Positions 2,147 to 7,156 of a stretch of 43,621 nt of DNA are shown here, piece after piece. The notes below the pieces were generated by a model. That model saw only the letters and a list, made by a program, of their open reading frames with translations. It did no database searches and was not told where the DNA came from. This stretch comes from Balnearium lithotrophicum (GTDB lineage Bacteria; Aquificota; Aquificia; Desulfurobacteriales; Desulfurobacteriaceae): the NCBI RefSeq assembly GCF_900182585.1, contig NZ_FXTM01000020.1:1-43621 (forward strand), read 5' to 3'. Every line of letters begins with the position of its first letter. The first letter of the stretch is position 1. The translations under genes and the position numbers were made by a program.

Positions 2147-3703
2147 ATGAAGAAAGAATTAATTCTTATCTTCATTTTATTGTTAATTTCTAAGATTTCC
2201 ATGGCACTTGAAATGCCTAGTGCCACTGTTCCAATATTTCAGTATCAAAGGGAATATCAAATTCTTGAAAGAGCAAAGGAGATAGGATTAATAAAAAATT
2301 CAGATTTGTCATTTAAGCCATTGACAAGAGAACAGTTTGCAAGGGCAATAATAGAAATATACAACAATAGAGCAATTTCTCCTTCTTTAGCTAAGAAGTT
2401 TTTTGATGAACTTTATCCAGTTTTTAAGAGTTCTGTAAATTCTGTTCTAAAAGAGGAAAATGAAAACTACATTAAGCCTGTTAATAATATATATTTTTCT
2501 ACATTCTCCCTTTCAGGAATCAATAATTACAAACTTCCTTATTCTGAAGGTTACTCTTTAAAGAATGGACTAAACAGTAGGCTTGACATTTCTTCAGAAC
2601 TTAAGTTATCACGTTTTCTTATTTATTTAGAACCGGAGTACAGATTAGAAGATATCTTAAGACTCAACAGAGGATATATAACTTGGAAGTTAGACGGTCT
2701 TAATTTCCTATTTGGTAAGGATAACATTTGGTGGGGTAACGCTGAAAATGGGGATTTACTATTCACAAATAACGTACGCCCTTGGTTAATGTTTAAGGTA
2801 GAGAACGATTCCTATAAAAAACTTCCTTGGATTTTTAAATACTTAGGAGAATGGAAATTTTCCAACATAATTGCTCAATTAGAGAAAGAAAGGGTTAGAT
2901 CATATGCCCATATTTGGGGGATGAGACTTGCGTGGAAGCCTTTTAGGAACTTGGAGATAGCAGGAACAAGAGCAATTCAGTTTGGAGGAAAAGGAAGACC
3001 CAATTACCACTCTTTACATGATTTTTGGGAACTATTTACTGCCAATAATGAAAATGTTAGAGATACAAATCCTGAGGCACACAAGTACGATAATAATCAG
3101 CTTGCTTCTATTGATATTACTTACTATTTGAATTGGCTCAATAAGTTTAATTTCCAACCGTTTAAAGGTGGAAAATTCTACTTTGTTTATGGTGGAGATG
3201 ATGCATTGAAACCTGTTGGTCCAGGAGGATTACCTCTACCAACTGGAGCTGCCCACATTTTAGGTCTTTCTCTAACAACAGGATTAACCGATTTGAAGTT
3301 TGAATACACTGAAACGACGGATGGGAATAACGGAGCAATGTGGTACAGTCATCACATGTATCCCAACGGCTACACTTATCACGGGTTTATCATCGGAAAC
3401 AATATTGGAGGAGATTCAGAAAGTTATTTTTTTAAGGTTTCAAAGGACTTTAAGTTTGCAAATGTATCTTTTTCTTACAACTACGTAGAACATGGGGTTG
3501 ATAGAAAGTCTATTCAAGAAAAAGAACATATATATTCTTTAAAAGCTAATAAGCTCTTGAATTTAAAGAATTTTAGTTTCCTTAAAGTATTTTCCACACG
3601 TCTTTATACCTCATTTATCTATGACAATATTGAGCACTATGACTATACTTCAAATAATAAAAATGTTTACTTATTCTCTATTGGATTAAACTTGCAATTT
3701 TAA
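2147..3703 (+). CDS. Capsule assembly Wzi family outer-membrane protein
   Basis: A 518-residue protein with a clear Sec signal peptide (MKKELILIFILLLISKISMA). A short helical region follows, with a motif resembling S-layer homology repeats (residues about 45-75, LTREQFARAIIEIY). The rest is a long run of alternating hydrophobic/aromatic strands typical of an 18-stranded beta-barrel. It ends in a C-terminal Phe (SIGLNLQF), the classic signal for barrel insertion by BamA. Conserved Wzi-family features include the LFGKDNIWWGNAENGDLLFTN-type stretch near residues 186-206. Wzi anchors or assembles capsular polysaccharide at the cell surface. The start is well placed behind a GAGGGAG ribosome site. 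It lies 10 bases after the broken SLBB exporter, suggesting a surface-polysaccharide operon that is now damaged upstream. AT-rich composition and lack of GAGCTC sites set it apart from neighbours. Confidence 0.8.
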   Translation: MKKELILIFILLLISKISMALEMPSATVPIFQYQREYQILERAKEIGLIKNSDLSFKPLTREQFARAIIEIYNNRAISPSLAKKFFDELYPVFKSSVNSVLKEENENYIKPVNNIYFSTFSLSGINNYKLPYSEGYSLKNGLNSRLDISSELKLSRFLIYLEPEYRLEDILRLNRGYITWKLDGLNFLFGKDNIWWGNAENGDLLFTNNVRPWLMFKVENDSYKKLPWIFKYLGEWKFSNIIAQLEKERVRSYAHIWGMRLAWKPFRNLEIAGTRAIQFGGKGRPNYHSLHDFWELFTANNENVRDTNPEAHKYDNNQLASIDITYYLNWLNKFNFQPFKGGKFYFVYGGDDALKPVGPGGLPLPTGAAHILGLSLTTGLTDLKFEYTETTDGNNGAMWYSHHMYPNGYTYHGFIIGNNIGGDSESYFFKVSKDFKFANVSFSYNYVEHGVDRKSIQEKEHIYSLKANKLLNLKNFSFLKVFSTRLYTSFIYDNIEHYDYTSNNKNVYLFSIGLNLQF

Positions 3704-4053
3704 AAATCATCGTTTCCCTTGCTAAACTTTCCTTCTTTGAAAAGTTCCAAAGCCTCGTCTAAGAATTTAATACTTTGAGATAGCAGATAAACTTTTATTT
3801 CAAAATTTTCTAATTTACTAAGAGCTCCACTTCCTATATCCTTTACAAGAACAGCCTCAATTCCCTTTTCACTGAACAACTTTGCAATGTAATTTCCCCT
3901 TCCTCTCTGGAGCTCCAATGTAGGATTCTCTAAGATTTCTAAATTTCCAGTTTCTGTATCGAAAATTGCAAAGAGATTTGACTTACCAAAGTGAGGATTA
4001 ATTAGCTTTCTTCCATTAACCTCTTTTTCAAGAATGGGAATAGTTATCCTCAT
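3700..4053 (-). CDS. NifX/NifB-type iron-molybdenum cofactor-binding domain protein
   Basis: A stand-alone 117-residue protein of the dinitrogenase iron-molybdenum cofactor family (NifX, NafY, C-terminal NifB). Visible hallmarks are the N-terminal IPILE strand, the conserved N-P-H-F-G-K-S segment at residues 19-25, and the GRGNYIAKLFSEKGIEAVLVKDIGSGA block. In the last of these, family members usually have a cysteine or glycine loop. There are no cysteines. In organisms without nitrogenase such proteins are thought to bind or carry iron-sulfur species. It starts behind GGAGGACTA-ATG and is divergent from the CooS-like gene across 141 bases, so a role in handling that enzyme's unusual cluster is possible but is inference. 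Its stop overlaps the Wzi-like stop by 4 bases on the opposite strand. Confidence 0.75.
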   Translation of the reverse strand: MRITIPILEKEVNGRKLINPHFGKSNLFAIFDTETGNLEILENPTLELQRGRGNYIAKLFSEKGIEAVLVKDIGSGALSKLENFEIKVYLLSQSIKFLDEALELFKEGKFSKGNDDF

Positions 4054-4123
4054 TAGTCCTCCATTAAAATTTCATTTAATTCTTTAACTCGGATTTACTT
4101 TGTTTTATAAATATTGTCTCTTT

Positions 4124-4165
4124 TTGACTTAAATCAAGGGAATGGAATTTCAGCGTCTTTAAGAT
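4124..4165 (+). promoter_or_regulatory. FNR-type box and -10 element upstream of the CooS-like gene
   Basis: TTGAC (4124-4128), TTAA, ATCAA (4133-4137) forms an inverted repeat differing by one base from the FNR consensus TTGAT-N4-ATCAA. A good -10 hexamer, TAAGAT, lies at 4160-4165. If transcription starts 7 bases after it, at 4172, the centre of the box is at exactly -41.5. That is the class II activator position, where the protein replaces the -35 element; no good -35 sequence is visible. A Crp/Fnr gene with a matching recognition helix lies 2.3 kb downstream. Activation is inferred from geometry, not shown. Confidence 0.6.
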
Positions 4166-4194
4166 TAATAGAGAAAACTTTTTAGGAGGTAAGG

Positions 4195-6156
4195 ATGTTT
4201 GGATTCTTTAAAAAGGGCAACGGTGGAAAGAAGGAAGAACAACAAAACTTCTGTGTTGAGTCTGACCTTTCTACAGGAGTTGGTTTAAAAATGCCCTCCA
4301 TCCATCAAAGTGTTAACTTCATGTATCAGAAGGTAAAGGAGGCAGGCCTATCAAACGTTGCTGACAGATTTGAGGCAATGGAAAAGGTTCGCTGTAAATT
4401 CTGTAAGGAAGGGGTTTCCTGTCAACTCTGTTCAATGGGACCCTGCCGTATAACGCCACAGACACCAAGGGGCGTTTGTGGAATCGATGCCCATGGAATT
4501 GTAATGAGGAACCTCCTCATTAAGGCCAATATGGGACTTGCAGCTTACACCTACCACTGCAGAGAAGCAGCCCTTACACTTCTTGAGACTGCAAGGGGAA
4601 ATACTGTTTACGAGATAAAGGACCCTTCAAAGATAGATGCTCTTGCTCAAATTTTAGGTGTTGATACTTCACTTCCGTTAGATTCAAAGGCAGAGAAGGT
4701 AGCCCAAAGGGTACTCGAAACACTATCAGAGAATAAAACTTCAACGTTCGTTGAAGCTCTCGCACCTGAAACGAGGAAAGAGGTATTTAAGAAGCTTGGA
4801 ATTACTCCAAAGGGACCGATGAATGAGCTCGTTGATTCCGTTACTCGTTCGATGACAAACATAGACGGTGACTACATAACCTTAGCCCTCGCTGCACTGA
4901 GAAACGGTGTTGCTTCAGCCTTTGGTAGCTTAGTTCCTCTGGAGATGATTCAAGACGCTCTCTATGGAACTCCATCTCCCCATGAGTGTACTGTTGACTT
5001 TGGAGTTCTTGACCCGGACTACGTAAACATACTTCCAAACGGTCACGAACCCTTTGTTGGAATGGCTCTTGTTAAACTCGCTAAGGATGAAAAGTTTCAA
5101 AAAATGGCAAGGGAAGCTGGAGCAAAAGGGTTAAAGATTGTTGGTTCCATTGAAACTGGTCAGGAGATGATGGCTCGCCTTGAATGTGATGACGTCTTTG
5201 CAGGACTTACTTCCAACTGGATTTCTATTGAGTACTTCCTCTCAACCGGTGCTGTTGATGCCTTTGTTATGGATATGAACTGCTCACTTGCAAACCTAAA
5301 AGAATATGCAGATAAGTACAACTTTAAGCTAATTGCCGTTTCAAACATAATAGGCGTTCCAGGTTCAATAAGACTTGAGTATGAACCTGGCAATGAGTCA
5401 AAGGTTGCAGAGGAAATTATTAAATTGGCCATTGAGAACTTTAAAGAGAGGAGGAACAAGCAAAAGGCCGATGTTTCCAAGTTTAAACAGAAAGCCCTTG
5501 TAGGATTTTCGGCTGAAGCGATTGTTAATGCCCTTGGAGGAAGTTTAGACCCTCTACTTGAAGTTATCAAAAGCGGTGACATTAAGGGAATAGCAGCCCT
5601 TGTTAACTGTACATCCCTTGGAAACGGACCTCAGGACAGTGTGACCGTTCAGATTGCTAAGGAACTTATTAAGAGGGATATTCTGGTCATAGGGGCAGGT
5701 TGCGGAAATGCCGGTATGCAACAGGAAGGATTGGAAACCCTTGAGGCAGCAGAAAAGTTTGCTGGCCCTAAACTTGCAGGGGTCTGTAAGGCATTGGGAA
5801 TTCCTCCTGTCCTCTCATTTGGAACCTGTACGGACACGGGAAGAATTATTATGACTGCTGTTGCCATAGCCAATGCCTTAGGAGTTGACCCTTCACAGCT
5901 TCCTGCAGTTGTTACTGCTCCTGAGTACATGGAACAAAAGGCCGTAATTGATGGATTCTCAGCCGTTGCAATGGGATTCTACACACACGTTTCCCCCGTT
6001 CCTCCGGTTACAGGGTCAGACAAAGTTGTTAAACTACTAACAGAGGAAGTTGAAGGCCTTACAGGTGGAAAGATAGCCGTAGGAGACGACCCTGTTGAAG
6101 CAGCTAAGGCAATGGAAGAGCACATCATGAAGAAGAGAGAACTTTTAGGTATATAG
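4195..6156 (+). CDS. cooS: CO-dehydrogenase-scaffold protein with hybrid-cluster-type active-site ligands (CooS-like)
   Basis: A 653-residue member of the CODH/hybrid cluster protein superfamily, full length for CooS. The N-terminal cysteine motif is C67-x2-C70-x5-C76-x2-C79-x4-C84-x10-C95. C76, C79, C84 and C95 match the B-cluster. C67/C70 resemble the CX2C D-cluster type known as [2Fe-2S] in Desulfovibrio CODH. By eye alignment to Carboxydothermus CODH-II, the C-cluster ligands are H284, C363, C472, C503 and C545, but the position of Cys295 is Glu320 (GSIETGQE). The segment before the catalytic Lys reads M-E580-Q-K582-A-V, as in Hcp. H, E, C, C, C, C, E is exactly the Hcp hybrid-cluster set. 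A Ni-free Fe-S-O cluster acting on hydroxylamine or NO is therefore more likely than CO oxidation, as reported for the deviant CooS-V. No CooF, CooC or acetyl-CoA synthase genes are nearby. The ATG follows a strong AGGAGG site. Confidence 0.85.
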   Translation: MFGFFKKGNGGKKEEQQNFCVESDLSTGVGLKMPSIHQSVNFMYQKVKEAGLSNVADRFEAMEKVRCKFCKEGVSCQLCSMGPCRITPQTPRGVCGIDAHGIVMRNLLIKANMGLAAYTYHCREAALTLLETARGNTVYEIKDPSKIDALAQILGVDTSLPLDSKAEKVAQRVLETLSENKTSTFVEALAPETRKEVFKKLGITPKGPMNELVDSVTRSMTNIDGDYITLALAALRNGVASAFGSLVPLEMIQDALYGTPSPHECTVDFGVLDPDYVNILPNGHEPFVGMALVKLAKDEKFQKMAREAGAKGLKIVGSIETGQEMMARLECDDVFAGLTSNWISIEYFLSTGAVDAFVMDMNCSLANLKEYADKYNFKLIAVSNIIGVPGSIRLEYEPGNESKVAEEIIKLAIENFKERRNKQKADVSKFKQKALVGFSAEAIVNALGGSLDPLLEVIKSGDIKGIAALVNCTSLGNGPQDSVTVQIAKELIKRDILVIGAGCGNAGMQQEGLETLEAAEKFAGPKLAGVCKALGIPPVLSFGTCTDTGRIIMTAVAIANALGVDPSQLPAVVTAPEYMEQKAVIDGFSAVAMGFYTHVSPVPPVTGSDKVVKLLTEEVEGLTGGKIAVGDDPVEAAKAMEEHIMKKRELLGI

Positions 6157-6163
6157 AGTTTTG

Positions 6164-6191
6164 CCCTCCCTTTGGGAGGGTTCAATTTCTT
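6164..6191 (+). terminator. Hairpin after the CooS-like gene
   Basis: CCCTCCC (6164-6170), loop TTT, GGGAGGG (6174-6180) is a perfect 7-bp GC-rich stem, starting 7 bases after the stop. It is followed by TTCAATTTCTT, a weak U-rich tail. It probably ends or attenuates transcription between the CooS-like gene and the ygbA-like gene, allowing partial readthrough. Confidence 0.6.
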
Positions 6192-6207: not shown

Positions 6208-6540
6208 TTGGGAGCCATTGAAAGGGAAAAAGAGACTATAAGAAAGATGGTTGAAATCTACTGTTGGAAGAAGCACAAAAGGAAAAGAGGGGAGCTCTGT
6301 CCTGAATGTGAAAAACTCCTACTCTATGCATTCAAGAGGTTAGAGTTATGTCCTTTTGGAGAAGATAAACCTACTTGCAAAAAGTGCCCCGTTCACTGCT
6401 ACCTGCCTGAATATAGAGAAAAAATAAAACAAGTTATGAGATTTAGCGGTCCAAGACTTTTAATTTACAGTCCCTTAGACTGGATTGTCCACGAATTTAA
6501 GGAAAAAGTATTTATGAAGCTAAATCCCTCAAACCGTTAA
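6208..6540 (+). CDS. YgbA-type nitrosative-stress (nitrous oxide-stimulated promoter) family protein
   Basis: A 110-residue, cysteine-rich cytoplasmic protein of the family named for its NO-responsive promoter (Pfam YgbA_NO). Family features seen are the KRG-E-L-C31-x2-C34 motif, Y40-A-x-x-R-L-x-x-C48-P-F-G, C57-x2-C60-x3-C64-Y, and the closing M-R-x-S-G-P-R-L-L-x-x-x-P block. The cysteine spacing suggests an iron-sulfur or zinc site. In enterobacteria the gene belongs to NO-defence regulons; its biochemistry is not settled. I chose the TTG at 6208, behind AGGAGAG, over the upstream in-frame TTG at 6172, because 6172 lies inside the terminator hairpin. It follows the CooS-like gene by 51 bases, and its 3' end overlaps the Crp/Fnr gene tail-to-tail by 29 bases. 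Confidence 0.8.
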   Translation: MGAIEREKETIRKMVEIYCWKKHKRKRGELCPECEKLLLYAFKRLELCPFGEDKPTCKKCPVHCYLPEYREKIKQVMRFSGPRLLIYSPLDWIVHEFKEKVFMKLNPSNR

Positions 6541-7156
6541 GATTTTTAATTAAAATCCTTCCTCCTTCCTTTTCAATTAAACCTAACTTTTTAAGTTTTG
6601 AAAGCATTCTCGAAACTGTTTCCTTAGTGAGCCCCAACTCCATCGCAGCTATGCCTGTACTGAAGTTTATCTCCTCCCCTTCATTTTCATACTTCCTTAA
6701 TATGTAGGAGGAAACCTTTGAAAGAGCTGTTTTAAGGGAAAGACTTTCTATAACGTTAGTTAAGTGGATTAGTCTTTGAGCCATTACGGATAAGAGTTTC
6801 ATTCCAATTTCAGGGTCGTTTCTTATTATTTCTAAAAACTCCTTCCTTGGTATGAGTAATATTTCAGAATCTTCAATCGTCTCTGCCCAAGCAGGAAAGT
6901 TCGTTCCTGTAAAGCTTGCAGCCTCTCCAAAAAGATTTGGTTTATCAAAAATCCTTATTATCTGTTCCTTTCCCTTTGAAGTTTTAAATACCTTCACAGC
7001 TCCACTTTTAAGAATGAAGAAAAACTCGGCTCTATCGTAAGGGGAAAAGAGGGTCTTTCCTTTGTCATACTTTTTTATAGTTGAAATCTTCTTTATGCTC
7101 TCTATCTGATGTTCAGTTAACTCCTTAAAAAGAGGAATTTTTTTTAGAAACTCCAC
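6512..7156 (-). CDS. Crp/Fnr family transcriptional regulator without cysteines
   Basis: A 214-residue regulator with an N-terminal cyclic-nucleotide-binding-type beta-roll (about residues 8-115), a long dimerisation helix (116-145) and a C-terminal winged helix-turn-helix (168-190). The recognition helix carries E179-x2-S182-R183, the combination that reads TTGA half-sites in FNR, which fits the box at 4124-4137. There is no cysteine anywhere, so an FNR-type oxygen-sensing iron-sulfur cluster is excluded. A haem- or ligand-sensing mode, as in Dnr, HcpR or CooA relatives, is possible but unproven. It starts at GTG behind GAGGAGG, 16 bases after ispD, as the last gene of the long minus-strand series, while its convergent neighbours are the YgbA and CooS-like genes. 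I infer that it controls them. Confidence 0.85.
   Translation of the reverse strand: MEFLKKIPLFKELTEHQIESIKKISTIKKYDKGKTLFSPYDRAEFFFILKSGAVKVFKTSKGKEQIIRIFDKPNLFGEAASFTGTNFPAWAETIEDSEILLIPRKEFLEIIRNDPEIGMKLLSVMAQRLIHLTNVIESLSLKTALSKVSSYILRKYENEGEEINFSTGIAAMELGLTKETVSRMLSKLKKLGLIEKEGGRILIKNLNGLRDLAS

Follow-up and report, generated by a model that had tools for sequence, protein, structure and literature searches.

Which regulator acts on the palindrome ahead of the CooS-like gene of Balnearium lithotrophicum, and what is the product of that gene for? In the 43.6 kb of DNA that we analysed (the window), the palindrome TTGACTTAAATCAA (positions 4124-4137, centre 4130.5, no strand) is an operator of the HcpR/DNR/FNR type with the family consensus TTGAC-nTAn-GTCAAgg, and a pattern scan showed it to be the sole exact TTGAY-N4-RTCAA palindrome present. 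About 0.3 such sites are expected in the window by chance, so that judged on the window alone the palindrome would not beat chance; it stands above chance because it is conserved across the family genomes. All 22 Desulfurobacteriaceae genomes searched have an exact TTGAY-N4-RTCAA upstream of the orthologous operon, and the FNR-type box of the original prediction is therefore a real control site. The half-sites TTGA and TCAA are invariant in the 22 genomes, the central TA is nearly so, and GG usually follows, giving the family box consensus TTGACnTAnGTCAA. Within the box, the 10 specified bases have a mean pairwise identity of 0.91, compared with 0.40 in the 40 bp upstream and 0.31 in the spacer that separates the box from the -10 hexamer.

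Taken by itself, the TTGAY-N4-RTCAA motif did not define a regulon. The genome-wide scan proposed with the original prediction detected a site at a ferredoxin gene (described below), but the B. lithotrophicum genome contained 10 exact palindromes against 7 for a reversed control pattern, most of them intragenic. The original prediction saw no equally good box at the other promoters examined; this is true of the window but not of the rest of the genome, where the ferredoxin gene has one. A refined motif, TTGAYNTANRTCAA, was also set aside after it was run over the family, as many of its matches away from cooS fell at a constant position inside one biotin-carboxylase-type gene (L006, L108-L110, L112-L114, L122 and L125-L127). 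Because the intragenic position is the same each time, these matches are probably a coding coincidence, and they are a warning against scans that use the motif only.

The hexamer TAAGAT (4160-4165, plus strand) is the likely -10 element, and geometry only predicts a transcription start at 4172 (plus strand). The arithmetic of the original prediction holds, with the box centre at -41.5, and no competing -35 was found, as there is no -35-like hexamer 16-18 bp before TAAGAT. A TANNNT hexamer stands at offset 36 from the box start in 18 of the 18 genomes outside genus g7, and this constancy gives strong support, at the level of sequence, to a class II geometry for the box. The A and T at two key positions of the hexamer are kept in all 22 family genomes; the -10 of g7 is weaker and retains these two bases and not the first. 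With a dyad at the predicted -41.5, a -10 and no consensus -35, the promoter has the layout of a class II Crp/Fnr-dependent promoter, and the conserved box and constant -10 offset support the view that the downstream gene has an FNR-family operator in the class II position. A ribosome binding site, AGGAGG, follows at 4184-4189 (plus strand). A dyad at -41.5 without a -35 is the standard position of an activator. This position argues against the box being a repressor site or being bound by some other protein encoded in the genome, an alternative that we find decidedly unlikely. Repression has a precedent in HcpR2 of Desulfovibrio desulfuricans, which is thought to repress hcp (PMC5701242).

A divergent Nitro_FeMo-Co (NifX/NafY-like) gene (3700-4053, minus strand) shares the intergenic region with the CooS-like gene; genes with this domain adjoin cooS-V in most of the family, and the box overlaps the possible -35 of the divergent gene. 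The box could thus serve mainly this gene, or both genes by activating one and repressing the other. The palindrome does lie between the two, overlapping that -35, and an AATATT tract is spaced suitably for a divergent -10. However, the nifX-like gene is 0.9-1.7 kb away in G009, G011, G016, G019 and G021 and the box still stays with the cooS operon, while the constant -10 offset points to cooS, which makes this reading quite unlikely. The operon of G019 and G021 begins with a cupin gene ahead of cooS, and there the box stands upstream of the cupin gene, remaining with the operon head. We assign the box to the cooS operon because it is retained where the NifX-like gene is distant and because it precedes the cupin gene in these two genomes. 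Upstream of the box is a conserved A/T tract, AAATATT (4109-4115, no strand; its AAATAT columns match in 14-18 of the 22 genomes), possibly an alpha-CTD (UP-like) contact or the -10 region of the divergent gene. Cupin_2 genes were seen in two unrelated phyla, either within the CooS-V operon or next to the regulator gene (L060:6994-7329, L061, and L205 at L244:1075-1464).

The likely binder of the box is encoded at 6512-7156 (minus strand), a Crp/Fnr-family regulator that lacks the FNR cysteines and has the recognition helix LTKETVSR. The sequence LGLTKETVSR is invariant in genera g1-g6, and its E, S and R are invariant across the family. Two further proteins with a cNMP domain were found in the genome, both of about 160 aa and ending ahead of any HTH, so that the 6512-7156 product is the only full-length Crp/Fnr candidate found there; this argues against another binder. 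The family-invariant ExxSR helix and the lack of a second full-length Crp/Fnr protein thus favour the protein named in the original prediction as the likely binder. A structure model of the regulator had a mean pLDDT of 80.5 and a pTM of 0.54.

The prediction had also implied FNR-type, anaerobic control, that is, a true FNR-like switch that senses O2 or redox state, with cooS-V simply expressed under anaerobic conditions. The motif TTGAY-N4-RTCAA fits the FNR consensus too, the ExxSR helix is FNR-like, and the NCBIfam FNR model gives the regulator 63 bits, although this is below FtrB at 93. Nevertheless, the ligands of the N-terminal Cys cluster of FNR are absent from every regulator orthologue, and the proteins have the Crp/Fnr domains without Fe-S cysteines that characterize HcpR and DNR. 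Among named solved relatives, the family profile is closer to DNR (122.7 bits) than to CooA (96), CRP (91) or FNR (89), all being PDB scores. In addition, the family has been described as one of strict anaerobes (PMC5441870) and the content of the operon is NO-related. We regard an FNR-like switch as unlikely, and the consensus of the box fits the HcpR motif TTGAC-N4-GTCAA, which has been described as wyTTGACnnnnGTCAArw in Geobacter, Desulfuromonas and cyanobacteria, before hcp and the ferredoxin-like frdX (Rodionov 2005, PMC1274295). With TTGACnTAnGTCAA, the family has the delta-proteobacterial type of HcpR operator, TTGAC-N4-GTCAA before the gene of a hybrid-cluster protein.

The HcpR1 recognition helix is defined by Ser or Pro at residue 180 and Glu at 181. 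Glu181 is present in the Desulfurobacteriaceae regulators, and residue 180 is Lys in g1-g6 and Ala or Val in g7; Ser occurs at this position in the regulator relatives of L205, L246 and L248. We found no His, Met or Cys conserved in the first 118 residues of the regulator and no evident counterpart of Met68, the heme ligand of P. gingivalis HcpR, which belongs to a different HcpR branch (PMC12750200). Because a conserved candidate heme ligand and a Met68 counterpart are both missing, we only infer that the regulator senses NO.

The downstream gene (4195-6156, plus strand) encodes a protein of 653 aa of the Prismane/CODH family that is of CooS-V type (structural group D-1), with Glu320 in place of the C-cluster Cys295. 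Its best solved match is 7b7q (669 bits; the next scores 426), which is Carboxydothermus CooS-V according to its Glu-bearing motif and PMC9311411, and the two proteins share 51% identity over the aligned copy. Cys295 is replaced by Glu in 20 of the 20 family sequences aligned, whereas the remaining ligands, the His and four Cys, are unchanged. A further mark of group D-1 as defined by Inoue et al. is also present, a Glu, shared with Hcp, that stands two residues ahead of the catalytic Lys (PMC6344411). It therefore has the features of CooS-V and lacks the complete C-cluster ligand set of a functional Ni,Fe CO dehydrogenase. Neither is it an Hcp, as it reaches 50 bits with TIGR01703 against a cut-off of 360.8. 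A true Hcp over the cut-off was found in none of the 22 family genomes, and across the 61 genomes sampled a single one turned up, in a relative at the level of the order.

Carboxydothermus CooS-V holds a [4Fe-3S-nO] hybrid cluster, neither oxidizes CO nor reduces CO2 and converts hydroxylamine slowly. Its potentials lie about 300 mV lower than in Hcp, from which the authors suggest a different function (PMC9311411); the slow turnover and the low potentials count against an Hcp-like role of the enzyme here. By analogy, the 4195-6156 product is predicted to be a hybrid-cluster hydroxylamine/NO reductase. The alternative is CO-responsive control of a genuine CO dehydrogenase that serves CO2 reduction, as proposed for Thermovibrio ammonificans (PMC5441870). 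The protein does score 786 bits to the TIGR01702 equivalog, over the cut-off, it was detected in the T. ammonificans proteome (PMC5441870), and the regulator is detectably related to CooA (96 bits). But with Cys295 exchanged for Glu in every aligned family sequence, that of G013 included, with CooS-V of this C295E type devoid of CO activity (PMC9311411) and with CO activity largely lost in a C295E mutant of CooSII (PMC6344411), we consider CO-responsive control highly improbable. As the enzyme has lost a metal ligand needed for CO chemistry, the locus is better read as a switch for nitrogen-oxide stress than as part of CO metabolism; the latter, suggested by the first description of the gene as CooS-like, gives way to a C295E CooS-V-type protein encoded beside a YgbA_NO gene.

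This ligand exchange bears on a published claim. Giovannelli et al. reported that the NiFeS-coordinating residues are retained in the type V CodH of T. ammonificans and that this enzyme may reduce CO2 to CO, which served an argument for an ancestral reductive acetyl-CoA pathway in Aquificae (PMC5441870). The CooS of G013 is 87.1% identical with that of G007 and 37.7% identical with the second CODH of G007; since these values match the 87% and 38% given in PMC5441870, G013 is very probably T. ammonificans and G007 D. thermolithotrophum. The G013 CooS carries GSIETGQE, in which the first C-cluster cysteine is missing, and this contradicts the published view of the Thermovibrio CODH as an enzyme with intact NiFeS ligands that could turn CO2 into CO. 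Other members of the class (L063-L067, from G041, G054, G058, G056 and G050) have a second, Persephonella-type group of CooS with GSLCTGQE, and we rejected it as the same group, the Cys being kept. These proteins have APEYYNNDA at the position of the catalytic Lys of CODH.

Next to cooS-V is a YgbA_NO family gene (6208-6540, plus strand; start codon uncertain, TTG at 6208 used), identified by PF11756 with 128 bits against a gathering score of 25. In E. coli, the NO-sensitive repressor NsrR has ygbA among its targets (PMC1274295). The genes for cooS-V, ygbA_NO and the Crp/Fnr protein are side by side in every family genome where the assembly covers them; the Crp/Fnr gene is convergent with ygbA in the window and co-oriented and downstream in genus g7. 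A stable, terminator-like hairpin (6163-6181, plus strand) lies between cooS-V and ygbA, with equivalents (L044-L062) in all family genomes examined, in which the stem is kept and the sequence varies. Because this conserved hairpin separates the two genes, expression of ygbA may depend on read-through from cooS-V.

Our analysis establishes the conserved box with its geometry, the conserved grouping of the three genes, the replacement of Cys295 by Glu, the ExxSR helix and the lack of Hcp. The natural reading, by analogy, is that CooS-V stands where Hcp stands elsewhere, in an HcpR-type regulon. We think it probable that CooS-V takes the place usually held by hcp and is activated by an HcpR/DNR-type regulator to cope with nitrosative stress. 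A Crp/Fnr activator of this type, most likely the 6512-7156 product, would bind the palindrome, and the dimer at -41.5 would contact RNA polymerase as a class II activator; cooS-V would then be switched on, with some read-through into ygbA. The trigger would most likely be NO or another reactive nitrogen species. The C295E hybrid-cluster product would reduce hydroxylamine, and possibly NO, in its host, and on that ground would take over the job that Hcp, absent from the family, does in other anaerobes.

A second probable target is the gene of an 85-aa polyferredoxin at G000:C7, which has an exact box followed by TATTTT at offset 36; exact boxes were present at 8 of the 16 orthologues read. The frame of this gene (L155:1925-2527, corresponding to G000:C7:28724-29326; orthologues L129-L146) runs through a conserved in-frame TGA (CPEDAFL-[TGA]-GxxCSS) into a second ferredoxin part. 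A hairpin of the type TCCTCCrGTTyGGAGGA directly follows the TGA in most orthologues read, the protein sequence is conserved on both sides of the TGA, and the genome has SelB. From these sequence features the polyferredoxin looks like a selenoprotein. An Rfam scan of the ferredoxin locus gave nothing at gathering score, a tRNA scan around selB gave nothing, and a literature search found no paper that joins selenoprotein, ferredoxin and Desulfurobacterium.

Outside the family, an exact box precedes 2 of the 68 testable CooS-V loci, where 0.15 are expected (two were reached in 4 of 400 simulations). The first is in an Actinomycetota MAG (L205), with a cupin gene, a Crp/Fnr gene (helix SETISR), the box TTGACTTAAGTCAA and cooS-V in a row. 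The second is in a deltaproteobacterial MAG (L209), where TTGACATTAGTCAA and then TATATT at offset 36 precede the CooS-V gene; this genome also encodes a homologue of the regulator (208 bits, helix SETLSR). Nearer relatives (L173-L175, 70-72% identity) have TTGA-N6-TCAA palindromes at a similar place. Most other CooS-V genes have no box, so that the link between the two is not universal. No ygbA was found adjoining CooS-V at the 68 loci, and no relative was found in viral contigs. The record L173 is titled Gammaproteobacteria, and its CooS-V is 72% identical to that of the window, like the Aquificota records L174 and L175; it is possibly a mislabelled MAG.

The genome also encodes a nitrate reductase of the Nap type, which at 534 bits falls short of the NapA cut-off and whose gene is clustered with one for an octaheme HAO-like protein; no NrfA exceeded the cut-off in the genome. 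The nitrate reductase of T. ammonificans has been described as monomeric (PMC5441870). The octaheme HAO-like gene (L278:12263-13690, in G000:C2; L279:3312-4688) is frameshifted in the B. lithotrophicum assembly and intact in G013. For Nautilia it has been proposed that HaoA reduces nitrite to hydroxylamine and that Hcp/Har, supplied by a 4Fe-4S donor, acts in the following step (PMC3701875). By analogy, CooS-V and the polyferredoxin could fill the roles of Hcp/Har and of this donor. A bolder proposal, which we put forward as speculative and rather doubtful, is that CooS-V is the missing cytoplasmic hydroxylamine reductase of nitrate ammonification (Nap, then the octaheme HAO-like nitrite reductase), fed by the box-controlled polyferredoxin as a new selenoprotein, with a single HcpR-type regulator in control of the whole route. 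A role in detoxification is safer to claim, because g7 and G007 keep the module without a full NapA, which also counts against activation for nitrosative stress. A 2026 survey of genomic context saw no clear pattern for clade D CooS-V and noted that a role in stress lacks proof (PMC13056359); the conserved HcpR-type operator, the YgbA_NO neighbour and the lack of Hcp give CooS-V a concrete, testable role.

Among known systems, the HcpR regulon (PMC1274295) resembles the locus in its operator consensus TTGAC-N4-GTCAA, in a Crp/Fnr regulator without FNR cysteines and in a prismane-family hybrid-cluster target together with a ferredoxin-like gene in anaerobes. It differs in that the target is Hcp there and CooS-V here, where ygbA adjoins, and in residue 180 of the helix, S or P there and K (or A/V) here; our regulator, placed by its PDB scores, is a putative member of this group. 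Pseudomonas DNR, the closest named solved relative, is an NO-responsive activator without Fe-S cysteines and has the site TTGAT-N4-ATCAA, but its targets are denitrification genes. For the enzyme, the counterpart is CooS-V of Carboxydothermus hydrogenoformans (group D-1, clade D), with 51% identity, Cys295 likewise replaced by Glu and the other C-cluster ligands kept. The reverse-HURM pathway of Nautilia (PMC3701875) shares Nap, an octaheme HAO-like gene without NrfA and a candidate 4Fe-4S donor; Nautilia, however, uses Hcp/Har for hydroxylamine, whereas the Desulfurobacteriaceae, without Hcp, would need CooS-V.
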